Below, piece after piece: positions 40,413-48,394 of a stretch of DNA of 64,000 nt. The stretch is taken from positions 62,001 through 126,000 of the forward strand of contig PBMB01000017.1 in assembly GCA_002722455.1 (NCBI GenBank), in the 5' to 3' direction. The notes under the pieces were generated by a model, which was not told the origin of the DNA, made no database searches, and saw nothing but the letters and a program-made list of their open reading frames with translations. The stretch is from Chloroflexota bacterium (GTDB taxonomy: Bacteria > Chloroflexota > Dehalococcoidia > Lucifugimonadales > GCA-2722455). The stretch's first letter is position 1, and the number at the start of each line of letters is the position of its first letter. The position numbers and the translations under genes were made by a program.

Positions 40413-40751
40413 ATGGCTACAATACGTATCATGTATTGGAAAGAAATCCCTGTACAAATTCAAATATTAGATGGCCCTAACAGCAAGTCAATTCAATTAG
40501 ACTCTCGATTTCAAGAAGGAGTTGATGCAATAGCAATGTTTGATGGGTCTGCTGGAACTGATGCCTATATAGATTCTTGGCATTGGGGTAAAGAACAAAA
40601 TATAACAACAAATGCTGAGACTGAATCTAAAAATTTAGCTGACCAATATAATAAGAATTTCCCAAATGACTTCGTCAAACGTATTCGTGATTTGCATAGA
40701 TCTGGAACTCGTAAACCATCACCTGGTGCTGTAGACCACTGGCTAAACTAA
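40413..40751 (+). CDS. Small protein of the 'virulence factor' family (PF13769-like)
   Basis: A 112-residue soluble protein matching, from memory, the family labelled virulence factor: the start ATIRIMYWKEIPVQIQ, then RFQEGVDAIAMFDGSAGTD and AYIDSWHWG are its characteristic strings. The name comes from an early mutant screen and says nothing about biochemistry. Family members are often seen beside corrinoid and folate methyl-transfer genes, as here, where it opens the cluster. A structural or assembly role in that system is an inference. AAGG lies before the ATG. It is divergent from the amidase gene. Confidence 0.75.
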   Translation: MATIRIMYWKEIPVQIQILDGPNSKSIQLDSRFQEGVDAIAMFDGSAGTDAYIDSWHWGKEQNITTNAETESKNLADQYNKNFPNDFVKRIRDLHRSGTRKPSPGAVDHWLN

Positions 40752-40773: not shown

Positions 40774-41652
40774 ATGAATCTACTAAATATAATATCCAAC
40801 TCATCTATATTTATATCAGATGGAGCTATGGGAACAAACTTACAATCTCGAGGCCTCGAAGCTGGAGGGTGTCCTGAATCATTTAACTTGCTCCATCCAG
40901 AAATAGTATCTAATATTGCAAAAAGTTTCTTTGATGCAGGTTCCCAAATGGTATTATCTAACACATTTGGTGCAAATCGGTTTATGTTAAAAAAATATGG
41001 TTATGGAAATAAAGTTAGCGAATTCAATTCACTTGCTATCAAAAATGCTTCAATCCACAAACCAGACAACCGATTTGTACTAGGAGCTATAGGACCAACT
41101 GGTGAAATTCTTAAATCTAATAGCGGATTAACTGAAGATGCTGAAGTTCTCGATGTATTTACAGAACAAACATCAGAATTATATAACGCTGGGGCTGATG
41201 GAATAATTATTGAAACTATGATTTCTACTGAAGAAGCATGCCTTGCCGTTAAAGCTACAAAGGCTACTTCTAACTTACCAATATTTACAACTATGATGTT
41301 TAATAAAGGTCCTCGTGGTTGGTTTACAATGATGGGAGACTCTCCTGCTAAAGCTATATCAAAATTAGAAAATGCTGGAGCTGATGTTGTGGGGGCCAAT
41401 TGTGGTAATGGAATTGTCGCTATGGTAGAATTAGCACAAGAAATAAGAGACTCTACAGACCAGCTTACATTAATTCATTCTAATGCTGGGATACCATCAA
41501 TACGTAAAAATGAATTGATTTACCCAGAATCACCACAATATATGGTTGAAGGATTTCTTAAAATGAAAAATATTGGAATTAATATTGTGGGAGGCTGCTG
41601 TGGTACAACTCCTGAGCATATCAATTCTCTTTCCAAAGAATTGAAAATATAA
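40774..41652 (+). CDS. Homocysteine S-methyltransferase-type zinc protein (MetH module-1 / BHMT family)
   Basis: A single TIM-barrel homocysteine-binding domain of 292 residues. The N-terminus SDGAMGTNLQSRGLEAGG is typical. The three zinc-binding cysteines are present: Cys210 in GANCGNG, and Cys275-Cys276 in GGCCGTTPEHI. Members transfer a methyl group to the thiolate of homocysteine or to a similar thiol. Here the donor is probably the methylated corrinoid protein encoded at 44624, since the other methionine synthase modules are encoded downstream as separate proteins. Alternatives are a betaine- or S-methylmethionine-dependent enzyme. Confidence 0.85.
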   Translation: MNLLNIISNSSIFISDGAMGTNLQSRGLEAGGCPESFNLLHPEIVSNIAKSFFDAGSQMVLSNTFGANRFMLKKYGYGNKVSEFNSLAIKNASIHKPDNRFVLGAIGPTGEILKSNSGLTEDAEVLDVFTEQTSELYNAGADGIIIETMISTEEACLAVKATKATSNLPIFTTMMFNKGPRGWFTMMGDSPAKAISKLENAGADVVGANCGNGIVAMVELAQEIRDSTDQLTLIHSNAGIPSIRKNELIYPESPQYMVEGFLKMKNIGINIVGGCCGTTPEHINSLSKELKI

Positions 41653-41708: not shown

Positions 41709-42377
41709 ATGAGTAAAAAACTTAGCATAGTAGAAGATACGATACAGAAATATGGTAATTGTGAAAGCCTAATTTCGATAGATCCTAATTTCCATGAAAT
41801 ATCTATTTCTCTCTTCATAAAAGATAATATAGCTACAGTTTGGTCTTTCAGTCATAAAAAAGGGATTGATCAGCGAATAGAACAAATACGAGATCAGTTA
41901 ATTCATTTAGGGGGAATGACACCTATTCCTGGAACTCATAATCAAGCACAGTTTCCTAATGGAGAAATGTATAAAAGACCACTAAAGTTTTTAATAAGAC
42001 AAGCAGTTGAAAAACCGGCTGATTTCAGACATCCTGCCGGACCCATTAGAATAAAAGATCTCCGCTCTCCATTAACTATTGAGATAATACCTCAGGAAGT
42101 TTCTGGATGTTGTGTTTATGAAGTAACAACTATAGGAGAACACAAAACTGCTGAAATACGAAAACGTGCTATTGTTCAAGGATTAGTTCGTTATGGTGAT
42201 ATGGAAAAAGTTGAACCTACCAAAGCAATTTTCCCTAATGGTTATAGACGAGACGAACTTGTCCGCATTGTACTTCCTTATGCACGTAATATTACAGGTA
42301 CTCAAGATATGTTAGAAGCTGATTCTATGCGAGGACAGATGACTACTGGAACATTAGGATTTTCCCCTCCAGTATAA
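41709..42377 (+). CDS. Uncharacterised 222-residue protein of the corrinoid cluster
   Basis: I do not recognise a named family. The protein is soluble, with an N-terminal sensor-like beta segment (LISIDPNFHEISISLFI) and a basic, likely conserved centre with IRDQLIHLGGMTPIPGTHN, RPLKFLIRQAVEKPADFRHP and RIKDLRSP. The C-terminal part has RKRAIVQGLVRYGDMEKV and YRRDELVRIVLPYARNITG. Only two cysteines occur, adjacent, in SGCCVYEV. AGGA precedes the ATG. Its place between the homocysteine and UroD-type methyltransferase genes, all on one strand, suggests a role in the pathway. Confidence 0.6.
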   Translation: MSKKLSIVEDTIQKYGNCESLISIDPNFHEISISLFIKDNIATVWSFSHKKGIDQRIEQIRDQLIHLGGMTPIPGTHNQAQFPNGEMYKRPLKFLIRQAVEKPADFRHPAGPIRIKDLRSPLTIEIIPQEVSGCCVYEVTTIGEHKTAEIRKRAIVQGLVRYGDMEKVEPTKAIFPNGYRRDELVRIVLPYARNITGTQDMLEADSMRGQMTTGTLGFSPPV

Positions 42378-42420: not shown

Positions 42421-43455
42421 ATGACTTTTAAAGAAACTATGAACCCTAAAGAGAGATGCCTGAATGCTCTCTCTGGTTTAAAAGTAGATCGTCCTCCAAT
42501 ATTGAACCCAACAAACGTAGCAACTGTAGAATTAATGGATCTTGTTGATGCTCCTTTTCCTGATGCTTGCAGAGACCCTGAACTGAATGCACGTCTTGCT
42601 GCTACAGAATATACTGAGCTTGGTTTTGATTGTATTACTCCATATTTTTCTATAATACAAGAATCTTCTGCGCTTGGTTGTGAAATTCAATGGGAACAAA
42701 AAGACAATTGGCCAACCGTTAGAATGACTAATCCCATTTGGAAAAATCCAGAAGATGTTATGATACCTCCTAATTTTCTTAAACATCAAGATTCTATTGC
42801 AATCACAGATTCTATCAAAATCCTTAAAGAACAATATGGAGAAGAAGTTGCAATTGTAGGTAAAACTATGGGCCCTTGGACTTTAGCCTATCACGTTTTT
42901 GGTGTTGAAAGGTTTCTCTTAATGTCAATAGATAATCCTAAAGAAACTCTGGACTGCCTACATAGACTTAAAGAAATATCTGTTCTCTTTGGTGAAGCCC
43001 AAATCGATGCCGGAGCAGATGTTTTAACTTTTCCAGACCATGCAACTGGAGATCTAGTTAGTGGTAAATACTACGAAGACTTCTTGCTCGAAATACACCA
43101 GGAAATGGTTGAAAAACTACCTGTTCCTTTAATTTTACATATATGCGGTAAAACAACAGACAGAATGGGGTATATTGCACAATCAGGAATGGCAGCTTTT
43201 CACTTTGATTCTAAAAATGACCCCCAGGAATCAATGGATATTGTAGATGGTAAAATTCGTCTAGTAGGTAACATTAATAATCCAGAAACACTATATTCAA
43301 AAGGCCCAGCAGAAGTTCGTGCAGAAGTATACCAGTGTATGGATGCAGGAGTACAAATGATTGCACCTGAATGTGCTATACCCTTGGCCACTCCTTTAGA
43401 AAATCTATTGGAAATACCAAAAGCAGTCCGAGATTGGTGCTCTGAGCGTAAATGA
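42421..43455 (+). CDS. UroD/MtaA-family zinc methyltransferase
   Basis: A uroporphyrinogen-decarboxylase-fold protein of the methyltransferase branch (MtaA, MtbA, MtvB). The zinc ligands expected of that branch are visible: His240 and Cys242 in LILHICGKT, and Cys318 in APECAIPLATPLENL. True UroD lacks this site, so decarboxylation of uroporphyrinogen is unlikely. Members move methyl groups between a methylated small molecule, a corrinoid protein and a thiol or other acceptor; MtvB starts vanillate demethylation this way. AAGGAGA precedes the ATG. The substrate cannot be read from the sequence. Confidence 0.85.
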   Translation: MTFKETMNPKERCLNALSGLKVDRPPILNPTNVATVELMDLVDAPFPDACRDPELNARLAATEYTELGFDCITPYFSIIQESSALGCEIQWEQKDNWPTVRMTNPIWKNPEDVMIPPNFLKHQDSIAITDSIKILKEQYGEEVAIVGKTMGPWTLAYHVFGVERFLLMSIDNPKETLDCLHRLKEISVLFGEAQIDAGADVLTFPDHATGDLVSGKYYEDFLLEIHQEMVEKLPVPLILHICGKTTDRMGYIAQSGMAAFHFDSKNDPQESMDIVDGKIRLVGNINNPETLYSKGPAEVRAEVYQCMDAGVQMIAPECAIPLATPLENLLEIPKAVRDWCSERK

Positions 43456-43471
43456 AACAAGTAGTTATACC

Positions 43472-44509
43472 ATGAGTCAAATCGTCAATCAAGCGCCTGA
43501 TTTTATCATCATAGGTGAAAATATTCACGCAACACGTGTTTTGTTACGAAATGGTAAAAGAGCAAAAACACTCCCTGATACATCTGAAGTTGTTCCATTC
43601 ATTAATTCATCGAATACAGAAGATTATTTAGTAGTACCTCCATGGTTTCGTGAAACTCAACCATATCAACAAAATCAAATCAAACATTTTATGATTGCAT
43701 TTATGAACGGAATCAAGGGAAATGATCAAGAAAAAAATATTGCTTCGGAATATATAGGATATGAGGTTCGAAGACAAGAATCCGCTGGAGCACACTATTT
43801 AGATATTAATGTTGATGAAATTCACTATGATTTAGAAATACAAAAACGAGCAATGAAATGGGTTGTCTCGACAGTAGAAAGTTATTCTTCAATACCTCTT
43901 TGTATCGACTCCTCTAATTCTGACATAATACTTGCTGGACTCTCAGAATATAAAGGTAAAAATGGACCACCAATAATTAATTCATATGCCGTAGAAAGAC
44001 CTGAGGTCCTTGAGATGCTGAAAGAATACGGTGGAAAAGTTATTACAATGGCTACAAGTGGCACAGGTATGCCTCAAAATTCAGAAGAGCGAATTGAAAA
44101 TGCTAAAATTGTAATAGACAACCTTCTAAAAATTGATATTCCACTAAATGATATTTTTCTTGATGCTATTATTTTCCCAATATCAGTTGACCCTCAAAAT
44201 GGTAATCACTACCTTGAAGCTGTAAACAAACTCAGAAACATATATGGAAATGACCTCTATATTGGAATGGGCCTAAGTAATGTTTCTTTCGGTATGCCTA
44301 AACGAAAATTAATTAATTTAGCTTTTATTCACTTATGTATCAAAGCTGGTATTAACGCTGGTATTACCGACCCAATTCAAACAAAAGTTAATGACGCACT
44401 TACAATTAATCCTGAATCATACCCTGTAAAATATGCCATTGATATGTTATTAGGTAAGGATGACTTTTGTATGAACTATATCTCTGCATTTAGAGAGGGA
44501 AAGCTATAA
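43472..44509 (+). CDS. Pterin-binding methyltransferase (MtrH / AcsE / MetH module-2-like)
   Basis: A dihydropteroate-synthase-fold domain that carries methyl-tetrahydrofolate. Signature elements are FIIGENIHATRVLLRNG, SAGAHYLDINVDEI, IPLCIDSSNSDIILAGL, GPPIINSYAVE, IFLDAIIFPISVDP and IGMGLSNVSFGMPKR. These match the folate-binding module of methionine synthase and the CFeSP methyltransferase. In this cluster it should exchange methyl groups between tetrahydrofolate and the corrinoid protein. Length 345, starting 16 bases after the UroD-type gene. About 114 bases then separate it from the corrinoid gene. Confidence 0.88.
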   Translation: MSQIVNQAPDFIIIGENIHATRVLLRNGKRAKTLPDTSEVVPFINSSNTEDYLVVPPWFRETQPYQQNQIKHFMIAFMNGIKGNDQEKNIASEYIGYEVRRQESAGAHYLDINVDEIHYDLEIQKRAMKWVVSTVESYSSIPLCIDSSNSDIILAGLSEYKGKNGPPIINSYAVERPEVLEMLKEYGGKVITMATSGTGMPQNSEERIENAKIVIDNLLKIDIPLNDIFLDAIIFPISVDPQNGNHYLEAVNKLRNIYGNDLYIGMGLSNVSFGMPKRKLINLAFIHLCIKAGINAGITDPIQTKVNDALTINPESYPVKYAIDMLLGKDDFCMNYISAFREGKL

Positions 44510-44623: not shown

Positions 44624-45361
44624 ATGCCAATAACTAATCCCCAACTTGAATCTGAAATGGTGCATATCGCTAAACCATCCGAGGTTGAACATATTCGTAA
44701 ATTATTCAAAGATGCAGATCCATTAATGCAAGAAATCGCATATGCTCTAATTACTGGAAATGATTCTGAAGTAAGCTCTCTGTCAAAAAAAGCTTTAGAA
44801 GAAGGATTTGATGCAAATACCGTACTTGACGATGGCCTGATTGCAGGAATGGCTATAGTAGGAATAAAATTTAGAGACAACATTATATTTGTTCCAGAAG
44901 TCCTTATTTCCGCACGTGCTATGAAAGCAGGAATGGCCCACATTGAACCAATTCTTTCTGCATCTGGGGTGGAACCAAAAGGTACAGTTGTGATGGGAAC
45001 TGTAAAAGGGGATCTTCATGATATCGGAAAAAATTTATGCATCATGATGCTACGTGGTAATGGTTATGTGGTACATGATCTTGGCGTAGACACAAAATCT
45101 GAAGATTTTATCAATGCAGTTGTAGAGTATGAGGCTCCTATTATGGGAATGTCTGCTTTACTTACTACAACTATGCCGAATATGGGAAGAGTAATTGAAG
45201 CATTTGATGATGAAGGTTTACGTGAAACAGTAAAAATTATGGTTGGAGGAGCTCCAGTTACTCAGGAATTTGCCGAAGATATGGGAGCTGATGGTTATGG
45301 AAAAGATGCTATTTCCTGTGTAGACTTAGCTAACGATTTCATACAATCTGAAGAATCTTAA
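44624..45361 (+). CDS. Corrinoid (cobalamin-binding) methyl-carrier protein
   Basis: The methyl shuttle of the cluster. An N-terminal helical cap domain (about residues 15-105, LMQEIAYALITGNDSEV, GLIAGMAIVGIKFRDN, FVPEVLISARAMKAG) is followed by a Rossmann-type cobalamin domain. The latter contains the DxHxxG motif Asp130-Leu-His132-Asp-Ile-Gly135, whose His coordinates cobalt, then MSALLTTTMPNMG and VGGAPVTQEFAEDMGADGYGKDA. This is the MtaC/MtvC/MetH module-3 type. AAAGGA lies upstream, and a near-consensus promoter precedes it. Length 245. Confidence 0.93.
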   Translation: MPITNPQLESEMVHIAKPSEVEHIRKLFKDADPLMQEIAYALITGNDSEVSSLSKKALEEGFDANTVLDDGLIAGMAIVGIKFRDNIIFVPEVLISARAMKAGMAHIEPILSASGVEPKGTVVMGTVKGDLHDIGKNLCIMMLRGNGYVVHDLGVDTKSEDFINAVVEYEAPIMGMSALLTTTMPNMGRVIEAFDDEGLRETVKIMVGGAPVTQEFAEDMGADGYGKDAISCVDLANDFIQSEES

Positions 45362-45365
45362 AAAA

Positions 45366-45632
45366 ATGCATTCAGTTAATAAATCCCGCTATGAAAAAAG
45401 TTTGAAAACTTTATATACGATCTTTCAGGATATTTCTAAAACTACAAATCAAGTCTCTAGATCACGATGCCCTTATAAAAACGTTAAATCAAATTGTACA
45501 GCTTCTTTTGGCTGTAGAAATCAACAGAAAATCATTAAATCCAATCAAAGTTATTTAAAATGTATTGGCAGTGACAATCTTAATTATCAGGATGCATGGC
45601 AAAATTCACCAATAACACCTGCTAGTAAATAA
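45366..45632 (+). CDS. Small four-cysteine protein following the corrinoid gene
   Basis: An 88-residue basic protein, starting 4 bases after the corrinoid stop. It has exactly four cysteines in the order C-x8-C-x5-C-x15-C (RCPYKN, NCTASFGC, KCIG), a likely zinc or iron-sulfur site, and ends with NLNYQDAW, which looks conserved. I do not know the family. Tight coupling to the corrinoid gene suggests it is an electron carrier, a chaperone or an accessory subunit for the corrinoid protein. Codon use and base composition are like its neighbours. Confidence 0.6.
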   Translation: MHSVNKSRYEKSLKTLYTIFQDISKTTNQVSRSRCPYKNVKSNCTASFGCRNQQKIIKSNQSYLKCIGSDNLNYQDAWQNSPITPASK

Positions 45633-45759: not shown

Positions 45760-47379
45760 ATGCTAATACTTGGTAACAAAAAGGCAAATCTAGTAACCGG
45801 AAAATCCATATTTGATTATGCAGATGACTTGAAAGTTCGTGTGCCAACTTCTTGTGGTCGTAGTGGTAAATGCCATGAATGCATAGTAGAAATCAAAAAC
45901 GGATACAATAAACTAACACAACCCACAAACAAAGAGTCTTTTCTTAAAGAACCATATCGCTTAGCTTGTCAAACTAAAATAGATTCAACAGATGAACCGA
46001 TAGAGGTATCTGTTTTAAAAAGACAACCTCGAATATTAGTAGATTCTAAAATGTCTAGTAATTACCCATCTTTTTCTCCCACAATTAAAAAAATTGGAAA
46101 TTATGTATTTCACAATGAAGCACAAATTGATACTTATAAAGATTGTATTTACGGTCTTGCCATAGATTTAGGCACAACCACAGTAGCAATGAACCTCGTA
46201 AATCTTGAATCAGGAGAGATTATAACTACTACATCATTTGAAAACCCACAAAAATTTGGTGGAAGTGATGTTATGAATAGAATTTCTTACGATTCAACTG
46301 AATTTCAGGGTGAATTGCAAAAAGTGATTATATCTTCAATCAATTTTGAAATTGGAGAACTATCGCGACGACTTAAATTTCATAGAAGAAGAATATATGA
46401 AATCGTTATTGTTGGTAATTCAACTATGAGGGACATCTTTTTTGGTTTAAACGTACAAACAATTGGAGAAAAACCATATAAGTCTACCACTGAACTAGAA
46501 TTTGAAAAGGGTACAAAGTCATCTACAACGCTTGAAACTCGTGCAAAATCAATTGGTCTTCGAATATTTCCAAACGCACCCATATATGGTGGTCCGCTAA
46601 TTGGATGCCATATTGGATCTGATATAGCAGCAGGTATGGCTACACTCAATTTTGAAAAAAGCGAAAAACATATTATGCTGATAGATATCGGGACAAATAC
46701 AGAAGTAGTAATCGGCAACAGCAATCATATAATTGCTGCATCATGTCCAGCAGGCCCTGCATTTGAAGGAAATGGTATTGTATATGGAATGCCTGGATAT
46801 GATGGTGCAATTGAAAAAATTAATATTGCTAACGGAACAATAAAATATCAAACGATTGGGGGAGTTGAACCTCAGGGCATTTGTGGCTCAGGGTTAATCG
46901 ACTTATTAGCTAATCTTAGGAATAATGATCTAATGAACCCTCTTGGGGTTTTTAAAGATACATCAAATGAATATATCTTTGCACCAAAACAGCAAATGTC
47001 TATATCTCGTTCTGATATAAGTATTCTTGCACAAGCTAAATCAGCCAATTACTGTGGTCAATATATTGCCCTTAGATCTTATGGAATTCCTTTAAATAAA
47101 ATAGAAAAACTATATTTAGCTGGTGGATTTGCAAATTATATTTCTATAGATAACGCTATTGATATAGGCTTCTTGGCTAATATAGACCCTTTACGTATTG
47201 AAAAAATCGGTAATTCTGCACTACATGGTGCGACTATCTTATTGCTTTCAAAAGAAAAACGATCTTCCATCGAACAGCTAGTACCAAAAATTGAACATAT
47301 TGAACTCGAAACTACACCAGATTTTTTTGATATCTTTGTAGAAGGATGTCAGTTCAAACCAATGATAGATATCAAATAA
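45760..47379 (+). CDS. Ferredoxin-ASKHA reductive activator of corrinoid proteins (RACE/RamA-like, DUF4445)
   Basis: An ATP-dependent enzyme that re-reduces inactive Co(II) corrinoid to Co(I). The N-terminus has a [2Fe-2S] ferredoxin domain with Cys32, Cys38, Cys41 and Cys70 (TSCGRSGKCHECIVE, RLACQT). A linker is followed by the ASKHA ATPase fold, with GLAIDLGTTTVAMNLVNLE, HIMLIDIGTNTEVVIG and KLYLAGGFANYIS. Length 539. No clear ribosome site precedes the ATG at 45760. Its presence shows that the corrinoid protein here relies on ATP-driven rather than SAM-dependent reactivation. Confidence 0.9.
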   Translation: MLILGNKKANLVTGKSIFDYADDLKVRVPTSCGRSGKCHECIVEIKNGYNKLTQPTNKESFLKEPYRLACQTKIDSTDEPIEVSVLKRQPRILVDSKMSSNYPSFSPTIKKIGNYVFHNEAQIDTYKDCIYGLAIDLGTTTVAMNLVNLESGEIITTTSFENPQKFGGSDVMNRISYDSTEFQGELQKVIISSINFEIGELSRRLKFHRRRIYEIVIVGNSTMRDIFFGLNVQTIGEKPYKSTTELEFEKGTKSSTTLETRAKSIGLRIFPNAPIYGGPLIGCHIGSDIAAGMATLNFEKSEKHIMLIDIGTNTEVVIGNSNHIIAASCPAGPAFEGNGIVYGMPGYDGAIEKINIANGTIKYQTIGGVEPQGICGSGLIDLLANLRNNDLMNPLGVFKDTSNEYIFAPKQQMSISRSDISILAQAKSANYCGQYIALRSYGIPLNKIEKLYLAGGFANYISIDNAIDIGFLANIDPLRIEKIGNSALHGATILLLSKEKRSSIEQLVPKIEHIELETTPDFFDIFVEGCQFKPMIDIK

Positions 47380-47398: not shown

Positions 47399-48394
47399 AT
47401 GAATCCAACCGTACTTATTACTGATTACGTATGGCCATCGATAGATGCAGAAAAACGTATATTGAAAGAAATTAATGCAAATATTTTAATTGCCCCTACA
47501 GGTGACGAATCAACATTAATTAAAATGGCAACTAAAGCAGATGCTATAATTACATGTTTTGCGCAAGTAACTGACAAGGTTATTCTCTCTGCAAAAAACT
47601 GTAAAATAATTAGTCGTTATGGAGTAGGTGTTGACAATATTAATGTTGACACAGCCACGAAAGAAAATATTATCGTAACTTATGTACCTGATTATTGCAT
47701 ACCTGAAGTATCGGATCATGTTATAGCAATGATGTTAACGTGGAATCGTAAAATCCTTAAACACCATAACCAAACAAAAACACAAGGATGGAGTAGTGTT
47801 TCGTTGAATGACAGAATAATGCGTCTTAACGATAAATATCTAGGGATAATTGGATATGGTAGGATTGGCAAAACTGTTGCGTCCAAAGCTAGTGCATTCG
47901 GTTTAAATATATTAGTATATGACCCTCTGATTCCAGAAGAAACACAAGATTCATTGGTAACATTTGTATCACTTGAAGAACTACTAACAAAATGTCATTT
48001 CATAACTTTACATGCACCTCTGTTAGAAAGCACAAAAGATTTAATGAATGAAGACCAATTCTCTCTTATGAGGCCTGATGCTTTTTTAATTAATGCAGCA
48101 AGAGGTGGTTTAATTAATGAAAAAGCCTTATATAATGCTATTACTTCTAAGAAAATCGCTGGCGCTGGACTAGATGTACTAGTAGACATTGACCCGCCCA
48201 TTGATCATCGGATTATTAATCTCGAAAATGTAATTATCACCCCCCATACTGCTTTCTTTTCCCAAGAATCTGTCATTGAACTAGAAGAAAGGGCTGCAAA
48301 AGAAGTAGTACGTGTAATTAAAGGAGAAATGCCAGATAATATTATTAATCCTAATGTTATCAGTACTTCAAGGGCAAATATAACAACTAAATAA
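47399..48394 (+). CDS. D-isomer-specific 2-hydroxyacid dehydrogenase (CtBP / PGDH-like)
   Basis: An NAD-dependent dehydrogenase reducing or oxidising a 2-hydroxyacid. The NAD motif is GIIGYGRIGKTVASKA, with the catalytic Arg in INAARGGLINEKAL and the His in ITPHTAFFSQES. The sequence resembles C-terminal-binding-protein type phosphoglycerate dehydrogenases, but the ACT domain of SerA is absent (331 residues). A strong AGGAGG lies at 47388-47393. It closes the methyl-transfer cluster. If it is a 3-phosphoglycerate dehydrogenase, it could supply serine-derived C1 units, but a different hydroxyacid is equally possible. Confidence 0.8.
   Translation: MNPTVLITDYVWPSIDAEKRILKEINANILIAPTGDESTLIKMATKADAIITCFAQVTDKVILSAKNCKIISRYGVGVDNINVDTATKENIIVTYVPDYCIPEVSDHVIAMMLTWNRKILKHHNQTKTQGWSSVSLNDRIMRLNDKYLGIIGYGRIGKTVASKASAFGLNILVYDPLIPEETQDSLVTFVSLEELLTKCHFITLHAPLLESTKDLMNEDQFSLMRPDAFLINAARGGLINEKALYNAITSKKIAGAGLDVLVDIDPPIDHRIINLENVIITPHTAFFSQESVIELEERAAKEVVRVIKGEMPDNIINPNVISTSRANITTK

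Follow-up and report, generated by a model that had tools for sequence, protein, structure and literature searches.

The window analyzed here, a stretch of 64,000 nucleotides from a Chloroflexota bacterium, holds a methyl-transfer gene cluster on its plus strand that includes a small gene (45366..45632) for a protein with four cysteines. The cluster opens with a PF13769 protein (40413..40751), a recurrent first gene of these clusters whose family name, 'Virulence_fact', looks misleading in this setting, and continues with a homocysteine S-methyltransferase domain protein (40774..41652), a 222-amino-acid protein that is conserved in the cluster and falls in no Pfam or NCBIfam family (41709..42377), an MtaA/CmuA-family (URO-D) methyltransferase scoring above the TIGR01463 cut-off (42421..43455), a pterin-binding (methyl-folate:corrinoid) methyltransferase (43472..44509) and a corrinoid protein built of B12-binding_2 and B12-binding domains (44624..45361), whose best NCBIfam model is of the MtgC type and below its cut-off. 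The small gene follows, and then a RACo/RamA-like reductive activator (45760..47379) and a D-2-hydroxyacid dehydrogenase (47399..48394), often the next gene after the activator. In most loci outside the Poribacteria the 222-residue protein adjoins the URO-D gene, making it a second undescribed component of the cluster. A search of the plus strand from the corrinoid gene to the activator gave no excess of promoters and no terminator, which is weak evidence on whether these genes form an operon. The corrinoid protein is the only PF02607 match in its own genome, which has no other MetH-like corrinoid protein and a single gene of the MetE C-terminal type (PF01717); the latter encodes a stand-alone protein of 344 amino acids (G000:C9:48480-49454) that is a possible core methionine synthase. 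Judging from the neighboring genes, the methyl chemistry served by the cluster is most likely that of a methionine synthase in split form, of a demethylase acting on a methyl donor, or of both.

Translating 45366-45632 gives a stop-free frame of 88 residues with the spacing C-x8-C-x5-C-x15-C, and the ATG at 45366 lies 4 nucleotides beyond the end of the corrinoid frame at 45361, both as given in the preliminary description of this DNA. The cysteines are Cys35 (codon 45468..45470), Cys44 (45495..45497), Cys50 (45513..45515) and Cys66 (45561..45563), and they stand within a conserved block, RCPYKN-x5-CTA-x-F-x-CRNQ ... C-x-GSD-x-LDY-x-x-AW, that is preceded by an N-terminal helix at about residues 6-32. 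The gene is single-copy in its own genome, where a second match on contig C2 (E 0.02) was treated as chance, and among the other 58 genomes from this order 27 have a homologue at 41-55% identity (E<1e-14), so that 28 of the 59 order genomes (own included, 41 families) match below 1e-14. A wider scan of genome contigs yielded 247 confirmed relatives, and 80 of these were taken for reading; by their record titles these come mostly from SAR202/Dehalococcoidia, then from Poribacteria, Acidobacteriota (including Bryobacterales), SAR324 and Entotheonella. All 80 carry C-x8-C-x5-C-x(13-18)-C, the last spacing of 15 being the window's own and 13 or 14 that of most relatives. The scan was seeded by two peptide patterns, of which one includes a pair of the four cysteines and the second lacks all four, and the search of the order genomes, which involved no cysteine seeding, gives the same four. 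All four are invariant columns in both alignments: the 27-row alignment is invariant at R34-C35-P36-Y37-K38, C44, A46, F48, C50, N52-Q53, C66, G68, Y74, A77-W78 and S12, and the clean 79-row alignment at the same set minus S12 and G68 (L027, with undetermined bases, was left out of alignment A1, and L062, with an undetermined base, and L074, the same domain as L071, out of alignment A2). The reading frame is intact in the relatives, and dN/dS for ten close pairs is 0.008-0.24, an eleventh pair being saturated at synonymous sites; the gene is under purifying selection. Sequence searches of Pfam, NCBIfam and the PDB returned chance matches only, neither a family nor a solved chain matching the four-cysteine domain, and we found no description of the protein in open-licence PMC papers. 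The family is thus real and conserved, and its four cysteines, whose conservation the preliminary description had asked to be checked, are invariant. One homologue (L128 5394-5999) has a long insertion between the third and fourth cysteines that repeats a CxNQRPL-like motif.

The neighborhood is conserved as well. The corrinoid gene is the nearest recognized upstream neighbor at 78 of the 80 listed loci, at a distance of more than 250 nt in 9 of those 78, and the linkage noted from the window alone therefore extends across the family; the two exceptions are L087, with no recognized neighbor, and L093, with a pterin methyltransferase. PF12225 and MTHFR genes separate the corrinoid gene from the small gene in L048 and L073. 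Downstream, the activator is the nearest neighbor at 50 of the 66 listed loci with a solo small gene, up to 4.1 kb away, and at L037 (4419-6389) a homocysteine S-methyltransferase fused to MTHFR lies between the two.

The activator matches PF14574, PF17651, Fer2 and the PDB entries 3zyy and 4c1n, and so holds the [2Fe-2S], middle and ASKHA domains (Fer2, Raco_middle and RACo_C_ter) of a RACo-type activator; the four Fer2 cysteines are invariant across 51 activators (alignment A3: the 14 fused proteins described below, the window's own and 36 solo activators out of those found). It resembles RACo/RamA/AcsV-type activators in its domains, but lacks a match to the RACo_linker (PF17650), as do the activators of L083, L106, L095, L128 and L119, whereas those of L112, L115 and L124 match it. 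The idea that the small protein substitutes for the missing linker yielded no rule, since the activator of L119 (the same region as L138), which is paired with a DUF1638 protein, is also without it. In the related activating enzyme of Acetobacterium dehalogenans, ATP lifts the cobalt potential so that the [2Fe-2S] cluster can pass an electron to Co(II), according to the part of that report available to us (PMC6739815).

It is to this activator that the small protein is most closely tied. At 14 of the 80 listed loci, 13 from Poribacteria and one from an 'uncultured bacterium', the small domain forms the N-terminus of a RACo/RamA-like activator of 631-653 amino acids and is followed directly by the [2Fe-2S] domain, and all 14 rows fall on one side of a branch of the activator tree (SH-aLRT 90), indicating one origin of the fusion. 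The Poribacteria cluster runs corrinoid protein, fused activator, homocysteine methyltransferase, and the small module thus stays with the activator with or without adjacent URO-D and pterin genes. Within the order, PF14574 is found in 27 of 59 genomes and the small gene in all 27 of these, and only one of the 32 genomes without PF14574 (G036) has the small gene, these being raw genome counts, uncorrected for phylogeny and not independent of the 80 listed loci, with which they partly share contigs; family f10 shows the pattern in miniature, one of its genomes having both genes and the other neither. PF14574 is also present in 48 of the 49 small-gene genomes reached from 50 loci (that of L107 left out), the exception being the genome of L087, again G036, in which no PF14574 was detected. 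In several genomes of the order (among them G021, G029, G001 and G005) the two genes lie on separate contigs or far apart, and the association is therefore more than operon hitch-hiking. Of 251 genomes sampled evenly across the phylum, 88 have PF14574 and 4 have the small gene, all 4 with PF14574: the small gene nearly always occurs with an activator, yet most activators of the phylum do without it. The preliminary description had proposed a dedicated redox or assembly partner of the corrinoid protein; the conserved linkage speaks for a tie to that protein, but the fusion, the near-perfect co-occurrence and the presence of the small gene where the activator is encoded elsewhere make the reductive activator the closer partner. 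The assembly half of that proposal, in which the small protein would insert the [2Fe-2S] cluster or the corrinoid into a partner without being a working part of reactivation itself, would suit a gene that adjoins both partners and encodes invariant cysteines, but covalent fusion to the activator better suits a permanent working subunit, and we regard an assembly role as quite improbable.

A known system offers a counterpart for such a subunit. Phaeobacter inhibens has a split methionine synthase that depends on both a RamA-like protein (ferredoxin-DUF4445) and a DUF1638 protein, mutants in the DUF1638 and RamA-like genes resemble those in the split MetH, and DUF1638 is encoded after the corrinoid gene, the authors offering no specific function for it in the part of the report available (PMC5764234); in Ruegeria pomeroyi the DUF1638 and RamA-like proteins are more abundant on N-osmolytes, as stated in the accessible text of a second study (PMC12478193). 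DUF1638 (PF07796), known from the split methionine synthase of Phaeobacter and Ruegeria and from their glycine betaine demethylase, also sits just after the corrinoid gene or in the slot between corrinoid and activator, and like the small protein it co-occurs with a ferredoxin plus DUF4445 activator. Conserved cysteines are a further shared trait, DUF1638 having two such columns, one kept in 16 of 16 rows and one in 15 of 16. The two differ in size (about 200-250 amino acids in DUF1638, 75-90 in the small protein). A DUF1638 search over 27 members of the small family gave no match, and a relationship between the two was rejected at an hhalign probability of 0.2%. Their distributions are nearly, not strictly, exclusive: DUF1638 is in none of the 59 order genomes, in 44 of the 251 phylum genomes and in none of the 4 among these with the small gene, and it accompanies the small gene in 2 of the 49 small-gene genomes (L066 and L069, from G332 and G333). 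G332 also carries two activators. Among other Chloroflexota, five clusters whose activators are relatives of the window's (L134-L138) have DUF1638 within the cluster, and L138 encodes corrinoid protein, DUF1638 and activator in that order on one strand without the small gene. In the activator tree, to which 10 further activators from Chloroflexota relatives had been added, the small-gene clade includes L138 and excludes L134-L137 (support 99 for a 53-row clade and 98 for a 38-row clade), so that at least one exchange between the two accessories is suggested, with the reservation that the genome of L138 is listed at 8% contamination. The small gene takes the operon slot that DUF1638 occupies in related activator operons of the same subfamily, and the best reading of this position and distribution is that the small protein may functionally replace DUF1638.

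What the four cysteines do is approached through structure and spacing. AlphaFold predicts the N-terminal helix (6-32) confidently and the cysteine region, with a two-strand hairpin, weakly (mean pLDDT 72.8, about 62-74 in the cysteine region); in a model of the fused protein the cysteine region falls to about 40 and no interface is visible. Queries with this weak model found little in the PDB, Foldseek returning a best E of 4.8 and VIA a single row at Z 2.2, results that point neither to a known fold nor to a new one. Zinc ribbons usually have CxxC or CxxxC knuckles, and plant-type [2Fe-2S] ferredoxins have the motif C-x4/5-C-x2-C...C. A classical zinc ribbon was rejected, CxxC-type knuckles being absent from C-x8-C-x5-C-x13-18-C in all 80 listed relatives, and so was a plant-type ferredoxin, whose motif and Fer2 match are missing from the small protein and found in the neighboring activator; the MTHFR C-terminal cysteine protein PF12225 gave no match and is encoded on its own in L048 and L073. 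Judged from their invariance and spacing, the four cysteines likely form a metal site, and we lean toward an iron-sulfur cluster because the knuckle typical of zinc ribbons is absent. The same absence weighs against the strongest competing explanation, in which the small protein is a structural zinc adaptor that holds the activator against the corrinoid protein and passes no electrons. The invariant cysteines, together with invariant R34, N52, Q53, Y74 and W78, would fit a binding surface, the roughly 27-residue helix is confidently predicted, and a small zinc-ribbon protein, MtrI, does bind a corrinoid protein (PMC12774963, in the part available); we give the adaptor a real but minority chance.

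MtrI of Methanosarcina mazei deserves comparison, since it is likewise shorter than 100 amino acids, has four cysteines in a metal-site region and acts on a corrinoid protein. As described in the accessible part of its report, it is a four-helix protein of Methanosarcinales only, with an N-terminal 15-residue zinc ribbon and a gene outside the mtr operon, which binds its corrinoid protein upon O2 exposure and places Cys40 on the cobalt (PMC12774963). It differs from our protein in being archaeal and not operon-linked, it did not match in the PDB sequence search, and an MtrI-like identity was rejected, the hosts here being bacterial and the cysteine block spanning 32 residues in mid-protein. 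MtrI is nevertheless the precedent for an oxygen-stress guard that would cap or sense the oxidized corrinoid and hand it over to the activator with no part in electron transfer, a role that the marine SAR202-type hosts (by record titles), the small size and the adjacency to the corrinoid gene would suit. The taxonomic confinement of MtrI and its location apart from the operon detract from the parallel, however, as does the tie of the small family to the activator by fusion and in every activator genome of the order, and we consider such a guard unlikely.

We therefore favor, with some confidence, the view that the small protein works as an accessory module alongside the RACo/RamA-type activator, in the ATP-driven step that brings the corrinoid cobalt from Co(II) back to Co(I). 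When the corrinoid protein is accidentally oxidized, the activator would return Co(II) to Co(I) at the expense of ATP; by analogy with DUF1638 in Phaeobacter the small protein would be needed for this step, its four cysteines binding one metal center, and it may sit between the [2Fe-2S] domain of the activator and the corrinoid protein, where it could pass electrons as a point of entry or present the oxidized corrinoid protein to the activator. Counted against this accessory role are the weak model of the cysteine region, the presence of both accessories in the genomes of L066 and L069, the lack of a detected activator in G036, and the disparity across the phylum between 88 activator genomes and 4 small-gene genomes. 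A bolder and more tentative version, to which we give a minority chance, is that the family represents a kind of redox subunit not described before: a four-cysteine (Fe-S) protein in the DUF1638 role that gives ATP-driven cob(II)alamin reduction an additional site for electron entry or gating.

Every cobalamin methyltransferase is limited by the reactivation of its oxidized corrinoid, and if the redox-subunit version is true, it would explain how oxygen-sensitive cobalamin chemistry runs in oxic water in aerobic marine bacteria. With a much smaller putative replacement for DUF1638, one that occurs naturally as part of the activator chain, the role of this third component of the Phaeobacter system becomes testable on a module of about 80 residues. 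The family appears, from record titles, to be widespread in SAR202, Poribacteria and other largely uncultured groups, and in these the small gene would mark out operons that encode a split methionine synthase or a demethylase.
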